From an uncultured Micrococcaceae bacterium (GTDB lineage Bacteria > Actinomycetota > Actinomycetes > Actinomycetales > Micrococcaceae), in the NCBI GenBank assembly GCA_947502645.1, contig CANNAD010000001.1, positions 558,001 through 622,000 of the forward strand: a DNA stretch of 64,000 bases. The letters are read 5' to 3'. Under the pieces are notes generated by a model. It saw only the letters and a program-made list of their open reading frames with translations, was not told where the DNA came from and did no database searches. Positions 13,777 to 54,463 of the stretch are shown piece after piece (position 1 is the stretch's first letter; each line of letters starts with the position of its first letter). Made by a program: the position numbers and the translations under genes.

Positions 13777-14618
13777 TGAGAAAATCGACTGGCCGCGAAA
13801 AGATGTGGTGGGCCATCATCACCGTTTTCGTGCTCGTGTACGCACTGTTCCCGGTTGCCTCCATCTTCGCGACGTCGTTCAAAGCGCCGAGCGACCTGAC
13901 CTCCGGCGAATTCCTGCCCAACGGCTGGACCACTGAGAACTACGAACAGATTCTCGTGGGCTCCGCCCAGGACCTGTTCCTCAGCTCGCTGTGGAACTCC
14001 ATCGGTATCTCGCTCATCGCAACTGCCATCGCCGTCGTACTGGCCACCCTGTGCGCGTACGCCATTGCGCGTCTGGATTTCCCCGGCAAGAAGCTGGTGC
14101 TGACAACCGCGCTGGCCGTGTCCATCTTTCCGGTCATCTCCATCGTGACCCCGCTGTTCAACGTGTGGCGGACCATCGGCCTCTATGACACCTGGCTCGG
14201 CCTGATCATCCCCTACCTCTCGCTGACGCTGCCGATCTCCATCTGGACGCTCACCGCGTTCTTCAAGCAGATCCCCTGGGAGCTGGAGCAGGCCGCACAG
14301 GTAGACGGCGCCACCACATGGCAGGCCTTCAGGAAAGCCATTGTCCCGCTGGCAGCGCCCGGCGTCTTCACCACCGCGATCATCGCCTTCTTCATCGCCT
14401 GGAACGACTTCGTATACGGGATCTCGCTGACATCAACAGAAGCAGCCCGCCCAGTACCGGCAGCCCTGGCATTCTTCACCGGAGCCTCCCAGTTCCAGGC
14501 GCCCACCGGCGCCATCTCCGCCGCCGCGATCATCGTGACCATACCCATCGTCCTGCTGGTACTGCTGTTCCAGCGCCAAATCGTTTCCGGCCTGACCCAG
14601 GGCGCCGTCAAGGGCTAG
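13773..14618 (+). CDS. ABC sugar transporter permease, SugB-like
   Basis: 281-residue second permease of the importer, MalG/SugB branch. Six membrane helices; the EAA loop reads ELEQAAQVDGATTWQAFRKAIVPLAAPG, with the usual G of the coupling helix. The start ATG overlaps the stop of the preceding permease by 4 nt and follows AGGGAGGTAAGTG. It ends 27 nt before the ATPase gene of the same operon. Confidence 0.88.
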   Translation: MMRKSTGREKMWWAIITVFVLVYALFPVASIFATSFKAPSDLTSGEFLPNGWTTENYEQILVGSAQDLFLSSLWNSIGISLIATAIAVVLATLCAYAIARLDFPGKKLVLTTALAVSIFPVISIVTPLFNVWRTIGLYDTWLGLIIPYLSLTLPISIWTLTAFFKQIPWELEQAAQVDGATTWQAFRKAIVPLAAPGVFTTAIIAFFIAWNDFVYGISLTSTEAARPVPAALAFFTGASQFQAPTGAISAAAIIVTIPIVLLVLLFQRQIVSGLTQGAVKG

Positions 14619-17037: not shown

Positions 17038-17083
17038 CGGCCCTTGGCCTGTCTGGTCTCTTCTCGGCTCGCCCCGTCTCGTC

Positions 17084-17183
17084 TCACCACGGACTTTCGC
17101 CACCTTTGAACGCGTACGACGGCGTGTCCCCCGGCTGACTGGGCACAATACGGGTGGCCACTCGCAATGTGGTACGGAATCCG
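17084..17183. repeat. 100-bp direct repeat, copy A (downstream of the DUF559 gene)
   Basis: Aligns without gaps to 18115-18214 with about 12 mismatches (near 88% identity by eye). The two copies bracket the DUF559 gene in the same orientation. The best-conserved part is the first 50 bases, beginning TCACCACGGACTTTCGCCAC. Confidence 0.85.
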
Positions 17184-17207
17184 TGCGCGGGCTGCCGCTA
17201 TCTAGGG

Positions 17208-18041
17208 TCAGTTGGGCAGAACCCGGCCGGTCAGTACTGCCTGGATCAGGCGCACCACTTCTTGCGGCTTGTACACAATGTCCTCATAGACGAACCGCAG
17301 CACCCTGTAGCCGTCGACGGCGGCGCGGTTGTCTCGTCTGCGGTCCTTTTTGAACTGCCGCTTTTCCCGGTGGTGTTCGCCGTCGACTTCGAGGATCAGG
17401 ATTCCCTCCACCAGGAAGTCCACCTCTCCGATGCCCGGTATCCAGACGTAGGACTCAAAACGGTAGCCGGAGTCCATCAGGATCCTTCGCGCTAGGATCT
17501 CGGGTACGGAATCTGCGCGGGGCGTGGTGTAGCTCAGCAGGTTCCGTACCCGGCCGTTGCGGTTCCCCGTGAGCTTGGTCCTGAGAAACGCGGCGGTTGT
17601 GGAACCCTGTCCAATGGCGGACTGCAGGAGCACGAGGGCGTCCGGCTCGGGCAGGCAATGGACAGCATCAAGAAGCGTCTGGACGAGGTTCGTCACCGGA
17701 AGATACGGGTATTTGCGGGCTGCGGCCCGATGAATAACCACGCCCGGTGCTGGATTCCCTCGGGGACAGCTCACATGGATGCCCTCCGGCGGATGCAGCA
17801 CCCACAGCCGATGATGGCGGGCGGCGGAGACACACGACATGGCTCCACCTTGAATCCTGGCCGTGATCACGGCTGATTCCGCCAGCGGTACTGCGACGAC
17901 GCCGGGATGCGGCCGCAGAAGGAGCCCCCTGCTCACTGCCGCCCGCACCGAATATTCGGTAGCTCCGGCCGCCAATATCTGCCCTATGCGCGCTGCCCCG
18001 CCACATTTTCTGACGAGCTCGACGGGGTCCATGCTTGCCAT
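17208..18041 (-). CDS. DUF559-domain protein with AbiEi-like N-terminus
   Basis: About 277 residues. The N-terminal region (GGAARIGQILAAGATEYSVRAAVSRGLLLRPHPGV) resembles the winged-helix head seen in AbiEi-type antitoxins. The C-terminal region (IGEVDFLVEGILILEVDGEHHR, then FKKDRRRDN and YRVLRFVYEDI) is a DUF559/very-short-patch-repair endonuclease-like fold with D, E-V-D and Lys in restriction-nuclease positions. Such proteins are common and often multi-copy in Arthrobacter-like genomes. ATG 18041 is chosen; the frame is open to 18182 but that extension lies in the flanking repeat. Role unknown: nuclease or toxin-antitoxin related. Confidence 0.7.
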   Translation of the reverse strand: MASMDPVELVRKCGGAARIGQILAAGATEYSVRAAVSRGLLLRPHPGVVAVPLAESAVITARIQGGAMSCVSAARHHRLWVLHPPEGIHVSCPRGNPAPGVVIHRAAARKYPYLPVTNLVQTLLDAVHCLPEPDALVLLQSAIGQGSTTAAFLRTKLTGNRNGRVRNLLSYTTPRADSVPEILARRILMDSGYRFESYVWIPGIGEVDFLVEGILILEVDGEHHREKRQFKKDRRRDNRAAVDGYRVLRFVYEDIVYKPQEVVRLIQAVLTGRVLPN

Positions 18042-18114
18042 GCTCGCGGATTCGCGGAGCAATGTCCTCTGGAGAGTCCCGTTTGTGGAAAACCCAGCGC
18101 GGTTTGCGAAAAAC

Positions 18115-18214
18115 TCACCACGGACTTTCGCCACCTTTGAGCGAGTACGACGGCGTGTCCCCCACCTGACTGGGCACAACACAGTTGGTCAGTGGCAAAG
18201 TGGTACGAAATCCG
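18115..18214. repeat. 100-bp direct repeat, copy B (upstream of the DUF559 gene)
   Basis: Partner of the repeat at 17084-17183. It lies just upstream of the DUF559 gene's probable start. The minus-strand frame through the repeat is open in both copies and gives nearly the same peptide (GTRRRTRSKVAKVRGE), showing that the copies share descent. Confidence 0.85.
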
Positions 18215-18259
18215 CGGGCGTCCAAAAACCCCAAGCGCCCAAGAACCCAACCGGGCAGG

Positions 18260-22611: not shown

Positions 22612-22896
22612 CTACTTCTTGGAGACGGCAGCCTTCAGCTTCGAACCGGCGGTCAGCTTGATGCTGTGGCCGGCTGCGATCTGGATGGTCTCACCGGTCT
22701 GCGGGTTACGGCCCTGGCGTGCTGCACGGTCAGTGCGCTCCACAGCCATCCAACCGGGGATGGTGATCTTTTCGCCCTGTGCAACGGAGTTGGCGAAAAC
22801 TTCGAACACAGCGTCCAGAACACCGTTGACGGCGGTCTGGCTGTTTCCGGACTTCTCTGCGACTGCTGATACGAGTTCACTACGATTCATAGCCAA
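22612..22896 (-). CDS. hup: HU-family nucleoid protein
   Basis: 94-residue DNA-bending protein. NRSELVSAVAEKSG starts the helical dimerisation part, and the DNA-binding arm motif GRNPQTGE with RxGRNP is intact, ending KLKAAVSKK. The likely start is the TTG at 22896, giving MAMNRSEL, because AGGAGG lies 6 nt before it and homologues begin MAKNRSEL. The ATG two codons later is 12 nt from the ribosome site. It has its own terminator downstream. It lacks the long Lys/Ala tail of mycobacterial HupB. Confidence 0.93.
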   Translation of the reverse strand: MAMNRSELVSAVAEKSGNSQTAVNGVLDAVFEVFANSVAQGEKITIPGWMAVERTDRAARQGRNPQTGETIQIAAGHSIKLTAGSKLKAAVSKK

Positions 22897-23022: not shown

Positions 23023-23090
23023 CGAAATCACCCTTTTCCGTCGAGATCACCCCCTATAACCCGTGATCTCGACGGGAAAGGGTGACCTCG
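23023..23090. repeat. 68-bp palindromic element, copy 1
   Basis: Arms of 30 bp (23023-23052 and 23061-23090) with an 8-nt spacer; three arm mismatches. Each arm carries two CGARATCACCC/CGAGRTCACCC-like half-sites 19 bp apart. It lies between hup and rpsN in a 330-nt gene-free stretch that otherwise holds only the rpsN terminator. Same family as 25328-25395 and 42385-42452. Confidence 0.85.
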
Positions 23091-23226: not shown

Positions 23227-23532
23227 TTACCAGCTGGACTTCTTGATACCCGGAAGTTCGCCAGCGTGTGCCATTTCGCGGAAACGGACGCGGGAGATAC
23301 CAAACTTCTGGAAGGTACCGCGCGGACGACCGTCGATCTGGTCGCGGTTACGAACGCGGATCGGCGAAGCGTTGCGGGGAAGCTTCTGCAGTCCGAGGCG
23401 AGCCTCTTCGCGTGCTTCGTCCGTGGCGTTTTCGTCGACCAGTGTCTTCTTCAGTTCGAGGCGCTTTGCAGCATAACGCTCGACGATCAGCTTGCGCTGC
23501 TCGTTGCGTGCAATTTTGGACTTCTTGGCCAT
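23227..23532 (-). CDS. rpsN: 30S ribosomal protein S14, zinc-free form
   Basis: 101 residues ([15 protein letters not shown] to the family-typical end KKSSW), the long type without the CxxC zinc ribbon of the short S14. It is the last gene of the rpmB-rpmG-rpsN set, 2 nt after rpmG. In actinobacteria these zinc-free paralogues are typically expressed under zinc shortage through Zur. I do not see a clear Zur box here. Confidence 0.95.
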
Positions 23533-24177: not shown

Positions 24178-25296
24178 TCATGGCCGCTCGACCCTTCCAT
24201 CAGCGCCCACGAGCTTAATTTCGTCGCCCTGAAGGCCTGCATCCGCACCTACGTGAGCACCAACGTCGAGCACTGTGTTTTTCACCACGGCACCCTCGCA
24301 CACCCGTGAACCACCCAGCAGAACGGAATTGAAGACGACGGCGTCCTCCTCCACGACGGCGCCGGGACCGATCACGCTGCGCTCCACCTGACCGCCTACG
24401 CGGGCTCCCGGTGAGACCAGACTATCCGCGACCTGCGCTCCCGCTGCCACGAACGCCGGGAGCCGATGGGTACTGCCCGTCAGAATGGGCCAGTCTGGGT
24501 CATCGAACTCGAGCCCGTCACCGTCGAGCAGGTCCAGATGCGCCTGAAGGTATCGCTCAGGGGTCCCCAGATCACGCCAGTAGCCGGCAAGGCGGTGATC
24601 GGCAACGACTTCACGGTCCATCAGGTACGGAATCAACTGGTCGCCGTAGTCCTGCAGCCCCTCGGGCCGGCGTGCGAGCTGATCGAGGGAATCGCACAGC
24701 ACTTGAGCGTCGAACAGGAAAACTTCGGCGGATACCAGGTCGGACGTCGGGCGTTCCGGCTTGTATTCGAAGGCGGCGATGCGGCCGCCGTCGGACTCCA
24801 CTACACCGTGTTCCGACGCGTCGGAGGTTACCTTCGTGGTCACCATGGTGAGCGCGGCGCTCTCTCGCTGATGAGTGGCGATGACATCGCGGTAATCCAG
24901 GCGATAGAGGTGGTCGGCGCTGGCCACCAGGACGAGGTCGGGATTGAATTCGCGGATCAGGCTGGTCTGGCGGAACAGTGCATCGGCGTTGCCGTCGGCG
25001 AAGCCCTCGCGACCGCCGCCCTCGAACGGCGGCAGGACGCGAAGCCCTCCGAGAGTGCGGTCCAGATCCCAGGGCCTACCGTTGGCCAGGTGGTCATTGA
25101 GCGAGTGTGGTTTGAACTGCTCCAGAATCCAGACGTCAGAGAAGCCGCTGTTGCGGGCGTTGGAGAGCGGGATGTCGATCATGCGGAACGTCCCGCCGAT
25201 CGGGAGCACGGGCTTGGCGCGCTGGTCAGTGAGGAGACCCAGGCGCCCGCCGGACCCACCGGCCATAATCAGCATCAGGACTTTCGGCGTCTTCAT
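24178..25296 (-). CDS. Glucose-1-phosphate adenylyltransferase family protein (GlgC-like)
   Basis: 372 residues. Nucleotidyltransferase domain (1-240) with the pyrophosphorylase signature GGSGGRLGLLTDQRAKPVLPIGG and ASADHLYRLDY; then a left-handed beta-helix of hexapeptide repeats (about 285-365). This is the GlgC shape. It is shorter than typical 400-residue GlgC and the substrate loop is divergent, so it may be a paralogue using another sugar phosphate. ATG 25296 follows GGAG at 3 nt; a GTG 18 nt upstream is an alternative. No glycogen genes are adjacent. Confidence 0.78.
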   Translation of the reverse strand: MKTPKVLMLIMAGGSGGRLGLLTDQRAKPVLPIGGTFRMIDIPLSNARNSGFSDVWILEQFKPHSLNDHLANGRPWDLDRTLGGLRVLPPFEGGGREGFADGNADALFRQTSLIREFNPDLVLVASADHLYRLDYRDVIATHQRESAALTMVTTKVTSDASEHGVVESDGGRIAAFEYKPERPTSDLVSAEVFLFDAQVLCDSLDQLARRPEGLQDYGDQLIPYLMDREVVADHRLAGYWRDLGTPERYLQAHLDLLDGDGLEFDDPDWPILTGSTHRLPAFVAAGAQVADSLVSPGARVGGQVERSVIGPGAVVEEDAVVFNSVLLGGSRVCEGAVVKNTVLDVGAHVGADAGLQGDEIKLVGADGRVERP

Positions 25297-25327: not shown

Positions 25328-25395
25328 CGAGGTCACCTTTTACCACCGAGATCACCCCTTATAGAGGGTGACTTCGACGGCAAAGGGTGACCTCG
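25328..25395. repeat. 68-bp palindromic element, copy 2
   Basis: Same 30-8-30 layout as the other copies (arms 25328-25357 and 25366-25395), with a few arm mismatches. It lies in the space upstream of the GlgC-like gene and downstream of the DUF3618 gene. Confidence 0.85.
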
Positions 25396-25432: not shown

Positions 25433-26023
25433 CTAGATACCGCTATCGCTTCGACCCTGGACGTTGTCCTTGCCTTCCTGGGCGCGGTCCCTGACATCCT
25501 CGGCAGCACTCTGGCCCTCAGACTTGACGCGGTCGGCGCTGTGTTGGGCGCTTTCCTTGACGTCCTGCGCTGCCTGCTTGGCGGGCTCCTTCAAATCCTC
25601 GGCTACCTGCCTGGCGCTGTCCTTCGCTTCATCAACGAGGGGCTGGGCCTTCTCCTTGACGTCGTCGGCGAGTCGGGCTTCGGCCTGACTCGGCGGGATG
25701 AGCGAGGACACCAGCAGGCCCGCGCCGAAGGCGATGAGTCCGGCGGCCAGCGGATTTCCTCTGGTTTTCTGCGCCATCCTGTCCGGGGCGTCGTGCATGG
25801 CCTCGCCTGCATGATGCCCCTTGTCGGACGCTGTGCCCTTGGCGTCATGCCCGGAGCCCATGACAGCGTCCTTTGCATCGTGGAATTTGCCCTTGACCTT
25901 GTCCGTCTGGCGGTGAACCACGTTGGACGGCGATACCTTGTCTGCTACGGCATCAACGTCTGTGCCCAGGCGGCCGCGGGTCTGTTCAATGTTGCTGCGA
26001 ATCTCATCTGGTGACTGGCTCAT
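25433..26023 (-). CDS. DUF3618-domain protein
   Basis: 196 residues. It begins with the DUF3618 signature (IRSNIEQTRGRLGTDVDAVADKV), followed by a His/Asp-rich linker, one membrane helix (GNPLAAGLIAFGAGLLVSSL, about 88-108), and an amphipathic Lys/Glu/Asp/Ala coiled-coil tail like late-embryogenesis-abundant proteins. Last gene of a four-gene envelope cluster and overlapping the holin-like gene by 4 nt. A stress-linked membrane organising role is plausible but unproven. Confidence 0.8.
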   Translation of the reverse strand: MSQSPDEIRSNIEQTRGRLGTDVDAVADKVSPSNVVHRQTDKVKGKFHDAKDAVMGSGHDAKGTASDKGHHAGEAMHDAPDRMAQKTRGNPLAAGLIAFGAGLLVSSLIPPSQAEARLADDVKEKAQPLVDEAKDSARQVAEDLKEPAKQAAQDVKESAQHSADRVKSEGQSAAEDVRDRAQEGKDNVQGRSDSGI

Positions 26024-32606: not shown

Positions 32607-32619
32607 GTGTAACCTCTCG

Positions 32620-32760
32620 TGACGCCTGCGGAGTTAGCTGTCGGGTTCGAGCAAGAGTTGACTCGGCCGGCATCAGACGATGCGGGCTTCACCCCGAGAC
32701 AGCCTTCGATCGACCGTCGTGAAACGTGGTTCCCCCACCCCTGCCTGTGATGATTTCGCG
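32620..32760 (-). promoter_or_regulatory. ydaO/yuaA c-di-AMP riboswitch
   Basis: On the minus strand the leader contains, in order, GGGGGAACCAC, GGGGTGAAGCCC and CTCGAACCCGACAGCTAAC followed by GCAGGCGT. These are the conserved blocks of actinobacterial ydaO riboswitches, known from Streptomyces rpfA. It ends about 14 nt before the M23 start codon. In this class ligand binding usually turns expression off. The 5' boundary is approximate. Confidence 0.9.
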
Positions 32761-32886
32761 GGACCGGGCACCTGGCAGGGTTGGGCGTGGGGCACGGGAA
32801 CTGAGTTATTGCTCATCAGTACGCCAACAAGGCTACGCGCATATTGCAGAAAAGTTATCTTTTCGTAACGAACGCCACTTTCAGTG

Positions 32887-41607: not shown

Positions 41608-42378
41608 ATGCCCACCTCACCCGAGTTCCGCTCTGCCGTCATCGTTGACGATGACCAGGATATTCGAGAACTGCTCACCGCCACCCTGGCGTCCAACGGG
41701 TTCACCATCCTTGACTCCGGAACGGGCCGCCATGGGTTACAACTCATTCGGGACCACAAACCGGACCTGATCACGCTGGACCTCAACCTGCCGGACATCG
41801 ACGGCGTCGAAGTATGTCGGCAAGCTCGAGCCATCACAGATGCGTACATTGTGATGGTGACAGCGAGGCAGGACGAGATTGACCGCCTCATCGGACTGGA
41901 AATTGGTGCTGATGACTTCCTCGTCAAACCGTTCAGTCCCCGGGAACTGCAGGCCAGGGTCGCAGCGATGTTCCGCCGTCCCCGCACCAGTGTTCGCCCC
42001 GCGGTCGTGGCACCGGCCCCGGCCCCCGTCGAGCCTCCACGCGCACCGGAGCCCAAACTCCTGAGCCACGGACCGCTCACCGTGGACGTCGAGGGCCGCG
42101 TGGCAAGCCTCGACGACGAAGAGCTCAGTCTGACCAGGACCGAGTTTGATCTGCTGGCCACACTGCTGTCCGCACCGCGGCGTGTGTGGTCACGGGAATC
42201 GTTGCTGGCCAAGGTCTGGGGCGAAGCCTGGGTTACCGATCAGCACCTCGTGGAAGTTCACATGAGGAATCTGCGCAAGAAGCTCGGAGACAAGGCAGCG
42301 GACCCGCGGTTTATCCGTACGGTGCGCGGCGTCGGGTACCGGCTCATGCCCGGTGGCCGCGCGGCAACCACGCCTTAA
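41608..42378 (+). CDS. Orphan OmpR/PhoB-type response regulator
   Basis: 256 residues. The receiver has D14-D15, phosphoacceptor D58, T85 and K107. A 40-residue Pro/Ala/Val-rich linker follows, then a winged-helix DNA-binding domain (LTRTEFDLLATLLSAPRRVWSRESLL to RTVRGVGYRL). No histidine kinase gene is adjacent, so it is an orphan. The convergent gene encodes a degenerate HPt-like protein, which could be a functional partner. The two genes are separated by palindromic element copy 3. Confidence 0.88.
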   Translation: MPTSPEFRSAVIVDDDQDIRELLTATLASNGFTILDSGTGRHGLQLIRDHKPDLITLDLNLPDIDGVEVCRQARAITDAYIVMVTARQDEIDRLIGLEIGADDFLVKPFSPRELQARVAAMFRRPRTSVRPAVVAPAPAPVEPPRAPEPKLLSHGPLTVDVEGRVASLDDEELSLTRTEFDLLATLLSAPRRVWSRESLLAKVWGEAWVTDQHLVEVHMRNLRKKLGDKAADPRFIRTVRGVGYRLMPGGRAATTP

Positions 42379-42384
42379 CCCACA

Positions 42385-42452
42385 CGAGGTCACCCTTTAT
42401 CCGCGAGATCACCCCCTGCAAAGGGTGATCTCGCGGATAAAGGGTGACCTCG
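42385..42452. repeat. 68-bp palindromic element, copy 3 (perfect)
   Basis: Perfect inverted repeat: 30-bp arms 42385-42414 and 42423-42452 around an 8-nt spacer, with no mismatch. It lies between the OmpR-type regulator and the convergent HPt-like gene and could serve both as a terminator. This is the least degraded of the three copies. Confidence 0.9.
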
Positions 42453-42479: not shown

Positions 42480-42926
42480 TTAGGCCGCCGTCGTAAACGC
42501 GTGAGCGGCGTCAGTGTAAAAACGCACACCCTCGGTGGAAAGCTTGGTCAACAGTGAGCGGGTTGATGCGGTGCGTTCCTGCTCCAGGCTCGTCAGGACG
42601 GACTGCGTCAGGACCTCGAGCCGACGGGCGCCCACCATGGATGCGCCAACGTTGAGGCCGAGAAGAATAGTGGTAGCGGACGCGTAGTCCTCAGCGGCGA
42701 TCCGGACATGCAGTTCGCGGATGCGCTGCGGCAGAAGATTGCGGAACGTGGCGACGACGCGGATGGCGGCCGTACGGCTCTGCAGGTCACCTGCGAGCCG
42801 AGCGAACACTGCATGGTCAACGACGGGAACTGATTCAGTGGCCGGCCCAGCATGCGTGACTGTGGGATGAGCCAGCGAAACTGGGTGGGTGGTGCTGTGC
42901 TTGTGATCAACGGCCAGTGTCAACAT
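42480..42926 (-). CDS. Degenerate HPt-like protein
   Basis: About 148 residues. The region from LAGDLQSRTAAIRVV to GARRLEVLTQSV follows the helical HPt pattern, but where active HPt domains have the AHTLKGSSANLGA-type block this protein has LGLNVGASMVGA, so the phospho-accepting His is a Leu. ATG 42926 lies 10 nt from GAGGAG; a GTG at 42965 is possible. Assigned from pattern, not a confident family match. A decoy or scaffold for the neighbouring orphan regulator is conceivable. Confidence 0.55.
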   Translation of the reverse strand: MLTLAVDHKHSTTHPVSLAHPTVTHAGPATESVPVVDHAVFARLAGDLQSRTAAIRVVATFRNLLPQRIRELHVRIAAEDYASATTILLGLNVGASMVGARRLEVLTQSVLTSLEQERTASTRSLLTKLSTEGVRFYTDAAHAFTTAA

Positions 42927-54393: not shown

Positions 54394-54463
54394 GCAAACC
54401 CGAGCCAAATCCGCGTTTCCGACGGATATACCCCTCGGAACGGACACTATGGCTCGGGTTTGC
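54394..54463. repeat. Inverted repeat with nested hairpin
   Basis: Perfect 14-bp arms GCAAACCCGAGCCA (54394-54407) and its complement (54450-54463), enclosing a second, imperfect hairpin around GTTTCCGA and TCGGAAC. It lies just past the 3' end of the secreted protein gene. Terminator, mobile-element end or structured RNA are all possible. Confidence 0.6.

Follow-up and report, generated by a model that had tools for sequence, protein, structure and literature searches.

Three copies of a 68-bp palindrome lie within the 64,000-nt stretch of DNA analysed here (hereafter the window), which derives from an uncultured Micrococcaceae bacterium. The initial annotation considered this repeat as a possible miniature mobile element, as a REP-like terminator or as a dispersed binding site for a DNA protein, and the locus thus raises the question of which of these the palindrome is and what, if anything, acts upon it.

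Architecture of the 68-bp element

The element comprises two 30-bp arms connected by an 8-bp loop. Within each arm, an 11-bp half-site occurs twice in direct orientation with a spacing of 19 bp, and the four half-sites of an element start at +0, +19, +38 and +57, with all of them facing inward. All three window copies are found at the positions originally proposed for them (Table 1) and each displays this four-site, 19-bp period. As had also been described, one copy is a perfect palindrome and the other two have a few mismatches, and all three are intergenic according to our own gene calls. The RNA folding z-scores of the window copies are -14.6, -11.3 and -6.7, with none of 200 shuffles folding as well.

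Table 1. Coordinates of the elements, of the DUF559-type genes and of the repeats that bracket them (window positions unless a genome, contig or locus is named; G000, the genome containing the window; G001, its sister species; G-T is scored as a pair)
Feature	Position	Strand	Properties	Neighbours and orthologues
68-bp element, perfect 30-8-30 palindrome	42385-42452	.	30/30 pairs; half-sites 42385-42395(+), 42404-42414(+), 42423-42433(-), 42442-42452(-)	convergent called genes 41608-42378(+) and 42480-42926(-); orthologous copy G001:3050210
68-bp element	23023-23090	.	26/30 pairs; half-sites start 23023, 23042, 23061, 23080	called genes 22612-22890(-) and 23227-23532(-); missing from orthologous spacer of sister species
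68-bp element	25328-25395	.	26/30 pairs; half-sites start 25328, 25347, 25366, 25385	37 nt beyond stop of 25433-26023(-); orthologous copy G001:3027662
AbiEi/DUF559-type gene	17208-18110	-	Pfam DUF559 E 3.4e-9, AbiEi_4 E 1.5e-5; start codon uncertain (ORF list 17208-18182)	
Left 107-nt direct repeat of this gene	17083-17189	.	copies 87% identical	
Right 107-nt direct repeat of this gene	18114-18220	.		
DUF559-type gene, own genome	L059:13491-14540 (G000 C1, about 1148.6-1149.8 kb)			
62-bp palindrome pair around the L059 gene	L059:13414-13475 and 14544-14605		unrelated to the 68-bp element	
Element-bracketed gene	G000 C2		gene frameshifted	elements 616713 and 617868
Element-bracketed gene	G001			element C1:2213046; decayed copy at gene end
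Element-bracketed gene, Kocuria	G242 C18 and G214 C13			locus beside pheS
Element-bracketed gene	G265 C11			full copy after stop; 32-nt two-half-site palindrome upstream

Distribution of the element within and between genomes

The palindrome is not confined to the window, contrary to the outcome that the initial annotation had named as a refutation. In the genome containing it (2.67 Mb, 8 contigs), a covariance model built from ten copies yields 70 strand matches at E<=1, which correspond to 35 places, a number that may be a lower bound since 150 of 2201 first-look candidates were scored. The genome-wide search for the 30-bp arm that had been proposed as a check, run at up to three mismatches, gives 39 matches, all of them inside known copies, and the exact two-half-site pattern gives 8, compared with none in the reversed control in either case. 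The exact inner pair of half-sites is present at 14 places in this genome, each of them within a four-site element and none solitary.

The congener G001 carries the element at 21 places by the first model and at 23 by a second model, which was built from 28 copies of 12 genomes. Within the family, the first model has matches in 10 of 295 genomes at E<=1e-6, and the second in 15 of 40 genomes and 9 of 31 genera at E<=1e-5, where the 40 genomes are mostly one per genus supplemented with known positives, such that 15/40 is not a rate. Matches in other genera retain the frame and have a different word. With stricter filters and 12 candidates scored per genome, the second model detects the element in 50 of 396 genomes (22 of 110 genera) of the order and in 2 of 396 genomes of the phylum, one being the genome of the window itself; exact patterns used earlier were too narrow, one yielding no matches and another matches in 5 of 395 genomes. 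Some relatives carry near-identical copies, and the 68-bp element belongs to an element family in related bacteria. No Rfam family attains its gathering score at the elements of the window and of loci L089, L154 and L133, and no paper was retrieved whose title or abstract opening concerns the 68-bp element, or DUF559 together with palindromes. A phage or plasmid vector was considered and rejected, as IMG/VR contains no exact match of the CGAGNT four-site pattern and the window element has no match in plasmids or phages.

Comparison with G001 could be made for 21 of the 35 copies, of which 14 are shared, 2 are decayed, 4 are absent (C1:441202, 581023, 1044869 and 1250174) and 1 is unclear. Empty sites, which the initial annotation had suggested looking for in relatives, are thus present, and the differences may reflect either gain or loss. 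In addition, four G001 copies (477701, 807315, 1183132 and 2207534) lack a model match in the syntenic region of G000, as judged by the model and not by eye. No clean insertion junctions are seen between the two congeners, because their flanks are too diverged. Gene cassettes between elements were rejected as a general feature, since a look-alike on G000 C2 turned out to be common to both species. At G001 C1:467110-468823 (L073), a 507-aa gene, which we take from its sequence to be ligase-like, is flanked by a full element on one side and a 34-nt two-half-site element on the other; the corresponding position of G000 has a single element and no such gene.

Half-site words and stem pairing

The half-site consists of YGAGNT and a subsequent word, as judged from 185 elements of 30 genomes. 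Nearly all genomes share positions 1-4 and 6, partly because the search model requires them, so that the shared YGAG is to some extent an artefact of the model, whereas positions 7-11 are genome-specific: the half-site reads CGAGRTCACCC in the window genome, TGAGATCACCG in a Kocuria, and CGAGATCCTG and CGAGATAGCGC elsewhere. The description of the half-site as the repeated unit therefore stands within a genome; across genomes it is the frame that is constant and the half-site word that varies. At positions 7-11, half-sites 1 and 2 of the same element have a word identity of 0.80, elements of one genome 0.81 and elements of different genomes 0.44. Half-sites 1 and 2 do not pair with each other, and their agreement in word therefore points to a sequence-reading protein. 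The ends of the element have the form YGAG...CTCR and are flanked mostly by CG or GC.

When 28 copies from 12 genomes are aligned, 91.3% of cells are paired and 25 of the 30 pairs have changed on both sides, and none of 500 shuffles reaches any of five pairing measures. The covariation score of 22 copies from the Kocuria G242 is likewise not attained by any of 500 shuffles, with two of the five measures not clearly above shuffles (113 and 23 of 500), and the same holds for the score of 16 copies of genus g3 (13 from G265 and 3 from G033). The signal is weaker among 29 copies of the window genome (6 of the 35 being left out), where 12 of 500 shuffles score as high. The half-sites of this genome occur in two forms, CGARRTCACCC and CGARRTCGGGG, which are randomly mixed within elements; in 32 copies the two outer types, CACCC and CGGGG, combine at random (AA 12, AB 16, BB 4), and no base-pairing reason was found for the swap between CCC and GGG. 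Stem pairing is thus not strictly maintained in this genome, and, given the weaker covariation and the random outer types, many of its copies look relaxed or old.

The elements lie mostly behind genes and lack U-tracts

Among 123 places in eleven genomes, a set that leaves out three weak matches (L081:13629, L156:9519 and L147:1185; E 0.002-0.009), 113 are situated between called genes, 7 overlap a called gene and 3 are without a neighbour, the calls being approximate and from our own simple caller. The 113 comprise 45 convergent, 56 tandem and 12 divergent arrangements, compared with 63, 382 and 184, respectively, for element-free spacers of the same loci (Fisher test, convergent excess p 2e-13, divergent deficit p 1e-5). 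In convergent pairs the nearest stop is a median of 16 nt away, and for tandem copies the median spacing is 41 nt from the upstream stop and 119 nt from the downstream start. In a second set from eight genomes of other families, 41 of 56 places could be classified, with 13 convergent, 20 tandem and 8 divergent cases against 35, 108 and 58 control spacers. We note that at four Kocuria G242 loci (L090, L092, L095 and L146) the TGA of the first half-site (TGAG) doubles as stop codon for the neighbouring gene (distance -3).

The outgoing flanks of the elements begin mostly with G or C, are G-rich and contain no U-tracts. Indeed, TTTT within 12 nt is found in 5 of 246 outgoing flanks and in 191 of 7940 control 12-mers (a background of 2.4%). 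Moreover, hairpins that resemble ordinary terminators by eye are found next to three copies (C1:441202, 581023 and 1250174). A plain intrinsic terminator, as one part of the initial annotation implied, is therefore not supported.

A tie to particular neighbour genes was also considered and rejected, with 279 adjacent genes forming nine clusters of 2-5 genes from 2-3 genera. One of the two-genus pairs is a DUF559-type gene, which was met again in the window genome.

A DUF559-type gene is bracketed by elements

This gene encodes a protein with an AbiEi-like N-terminus, seen as weak Pfam and PADLOC matches, and a C-terminus of the DUF559/MTES_1575 nuclease type, with matches that are weak to moderate overall. 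Elements bracket it in five genomes (G000, G001, G242, G214 and G265; Table 1), at three independent loci; G242/G214 and G000/G001, like the window and G001 3020664, form orthologous and thus non-independent pairs. The downstream copy either runs into the end of the gene or is at most about 30 nt away from it, and the upstream copy is located about 150-240 nt from the assumed start. By comparison, 12 of 1802 called genes have elements on both sides within 300 nt, a count that excludes the DUF559-type genes themselves, as these were shortened by our gene caller. The bracketed gene of G001 looks intact, yet its element copies have decayed. The AbiEi/DUF559 gene is therefore associated with the elements and is a candidate for mobilising them.

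Within the loci examined, which represent a small part of each genome, no DUF559-type gene was found in G005, G026, G033, G142, G273 and G294 or in eight genomes of other families. The Kocuria protein has no relative in phages and the G265 protein none in plasmids, NCBIfam holds no family for six of the proteins, and the one protein searched against solved structures gave a single match with E 0.31. In 12 aligned proteins, E, D and E-x-DG positions are kept at 75% consensus, which we take to be catalytic by analogy with Vsr-like and PD-(D/E)XK nucleases.

Related genes are bracketed by other repeats

Bracketing by two copies of one repeat was observed for 20 of 22 DUF559-type genes tested, for 17 by a flank-repeat score, in which the two flanks are compared by a pairwise aligner, and for 3 by elements or their remnants. 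Among DUF559-type genes, 16 of 20 scored >=24, compared with 25 of 1689 controls (p 2e-24), and 10 of 20 scored >=35, compared with 18 of 1689, with some of the positive controls being genes bracketed by the 68-bp elements. The four misses are the genes of G214, G265 and G001, which are bracketed by elements or remnants, and that of Nonomuraea, whose ends were guessed and which is not bracketed. Of two genes tested later, that of Actinomyces oris is bracketed and Tsukamurella EL451_RS23225 is not; neither is one more AbiEi-annotated gene outside the 22, which may or may not be of the DUF559 type. The 22 leave out G000 C1:493114, which is cut by the locus edge, and a second A. oris place. All ten chromosomal genes tested sit in stretches chosen for carrying elements, which biases the count of element bracketing and weighs less for the five bracketed by other repeats, and within-locus controls offset this choice only in part. 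Among named records picked by protein similarity alone, 10 of 12 genes are bracketed.

For the first ten named-record genes, a search for palindromes only found them on both sides of 1, on one side of 4 and on neither side of 5, whereas comparing flank with flank revealed repeats for 9 of the 10; many of the bracketing repeats are thus not simple palindromes, as is the case for those of A. oris and of the window gene. The repeats are 51-143 nt long, direct or inverted and mostly hairpin-forming. In 16 of 17 cases the distance between the gene end and the downstream repeat is -8 to 29 nt, and the upstream repeat is -4 to 239 nt from the assumed start.

The gene in the window is a paralogue, and its brackets are not the 68-bp element; its relative in the sister species (L087:3013-3771) has 88-nt direct repeats of its own. 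The 62-bp palindrome around the L059 gene has only one further copy in the sequence examined, at G001 L087:13538-13597, just past a called stop. A 50-kb stretch of Tsukamurella tyrosinosolvens contains just two palindromes with >=18 pairs, the ones bracketing the DUF559-type gene, and this palindrome occurs at 20 strand places in 8 records; one of these places overlaps an annotated amidohydrolase gene. Inspection of four dispersed copies put the nearest stop codon at distances of 3, 7, 0 and 8 nt, with three of these copies flanked by convergent genes. The records NZ_LR134451-NZ_LR134468 of this organism (strain NCTC13231) are labelled plasmids and contain core genes, and look like pieces of a chromosome. 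The bracketing palindromes of Arthrobacter sp. StoSoilB13 and ERGS1:01 also recur, and the upstream palindrome of the StoSoilB13-2 gene matches the element model with E 1e-6.

Comparison with known systems

In Neisseria (DUS) and Haemophilus (USS), uptake sequences occur at the 3' ends of genes as short words in inverted pairs, an arrangement that the 68-bp element resembles with its inverted short-word sites behind genes. In contrast, exact half-sites in the window are confined to the three copies. With up to two mismatches, 68 of 80 half-sites in the window lie outside the copies, where 55.3 +- 7.8 are expected and the largest shuffle reaches 76. A DNA uptake sequence was rejected, as solitary words are not over-represented in the window and inner pairs are found genome-wide only in elements. 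The bracketed genes resemble AbiEi, the antitoxin of the AbiE type (type IV), in their N-terminus, as judged from weak matches, but differ from it in that this N-terminus is joined to the DUF559/MTES_1575 nuclease-type domain.

REPINs, as described in PMC3116915, are short, dispersed palindromic units that form one long hairpin with compensatory changes, are extragenic and are linked to a partner gene. The 68-bp element is similarly dispersed, extragenic and hairpin-forming with compensatory changes, and has copies around one gene; by contrast, its arms are built from two direct half-sites on a 19-bp frame and its candidate partner is a gene of the AbiEi/DUF559 nuclease type. It is not a REPIN in the defining sense, because no RAYT was found: the Y1 HUH transposase/RAYT family (PF01797) is detected in none of 47 genomes, 37 of which bear elements, and in 5 of 14 control genomes. 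REPs tagged with GTAG or CGTC are reported in PMC3733652 to follow ORFs and to be situated chiefly in spacers of convergent or unidirectional genes, and the 68-bp element too lies mostly at gene 3' ends and often between convergent genes, but without a constant GTAG or CGTC tag at its ends; GTAG is present only inside the word of some genomes (CGAGGTAG). The term "Actinobacteria" does not appear in the main text of PMC3733652. The putative-REP table of RepRanger includes Arthrobacter livingstonensis (PMC12306157), and a palindrome without a U-tail, like the 68-bp element, would be counted there, whereas the accessible text of PMC12306157 gives no description of the 68-bp element, its frame or an Actinomycetota partner gene.

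A candidate nuclease partner and alternative explanations

The initial suggestions of a REP-like or a mobile element are the best supported, on account of the 35 dispersed places, the presence and absence of copies between congeners, the near-identical copies in some relatives and the nuclease-like gene bracketed by elements. The suggestion of a dispersed binding site is probably right in part, since four half-sites with the same word on a fixed frame resemble protein contacts, and half-site binding may constitute the recognition step of a mobile system. We therefore favour, with a probability of roughly 0.55, that the 68-bp element is a REPIN-like, non-autonomous palindromic repeat with a DUF559-type nuclease as its partner. 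On the basis of the bracketing, the E, D and E-x-DG positions and the genome-specific words, we suggest that the AbiEi-like N-terminal domain would read the word of the genome in the half-sites, and that the DUF559 nuclease-type C-terminal domain would cut or nick the palindrome, either as a hairpin or as a duplex. Repair or strand transfer could then copy the palindrome to new sites, and insertions would survive chiefly when they land immediately after a gene, where the disturbance is smallest. In the window genome the family may represent an ageing population, as the bracketed gene carries a frameshift and decay is seen in many of the copies. More tentatively, and at somewhat less than even odds, AbiEi-DUF559 proteins could form an unrecognised class of element-mobilising nucleases, unrelated to RAYTs. 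Each gene would then be a cassette flanked on both sides by its own cognate repeat, and in many Actinomycetota this repeat would have spread through the genome as REPIN-like palindromes, with the word co-evolving with the protein.

The positions of the copies close to stop codons and between convergent genes, and of one repeat upstream of the gene, would also fit an AbiEi-like regulator for which the upstream copy is an autoregulatory operator and the gene-end copies stop or insulate transcription in both directions, with slow recombinational spread and no nuclease. A precedent exists in AbiEi antitoxins, whose own promoters carry inverted repeats to which they bind, and four half-sites with one word on a fixed 19-bp frame would suit such a protein. 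We consider this explanation unlikely, because a nuclease-type domain with conserved E, D and E-x-DG positions would be superfluous, the second copy, lying at the gene end, would not be required as an operator, and the presence of the element is patchy and differs between congeners. Slightly less likely still is a selected RNA hairpin that acts in both directions, either by ending transcription or by protecting mRNA 3' ends against exonucleases, and has spread by gene conversion. Although the stems of 29-30 bp, their covariation and the location after stops are in keeping with it, such a hairpin would not require one word four times, the U-tract is lacking, separate terminator-like hairpins stand beside three copies, only 35 places are occupied and 9 of 56 tandem copies lie <40 nt from the next called start. 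Either role could coexist with mobilisation by the nuclease-type partner.

An origin of the element as a MITE of an ordinary insertion sequence, with the 30-bp arms as the IS ends, would account for the inverted-repeat structure and the dispersed copies, but appears improbable, as all 39 arm matches in the window genome fall in complete elements, with none alone at an IS end. No target-site duplication was recognised by eye in the flanks, the empty sites being too diverged. Least probable of all is a classical REP or REPIN mobilised by a RAYT (Y1 HUH transposase): the element is palindromic, extragenic, biased towards 3' ends and forms a compensated hairpin, as in the systems described in PMC3116915 and PMC3733652, but PF01797 was found in no genome searched and the constant GTAG or CGTC tag is missing.

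REP-type palindromes are tied to RAYTs in the literature consulted, and a DUF559/AbiEi partner, if correct, would represent a second evolutionary solution, of independent origin, to the maintenance of short palindromes in bacterial genomes, and would reveal what a domain of so far unknown function does. The genome-specific words offer a natural series for following joint change of a protein and its DNA site, and the half-site frame allows a direct binding and cleavage test.

Other features of the window

The gene at 24178-25296(-), presumably related to glgC as judged from its sequence, adjoins the 25328 copy and has no match at the orthologous place of the sister species. An inverted repeat at 54394-54463, with 35-nt arms that are 74% complementary and no gap, is outside the 68-bp element family. 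A c-di-AMP riboswitch (ydaO/yuaA leader) is located at 32609-32780(-) with a score of 55.8 bits.
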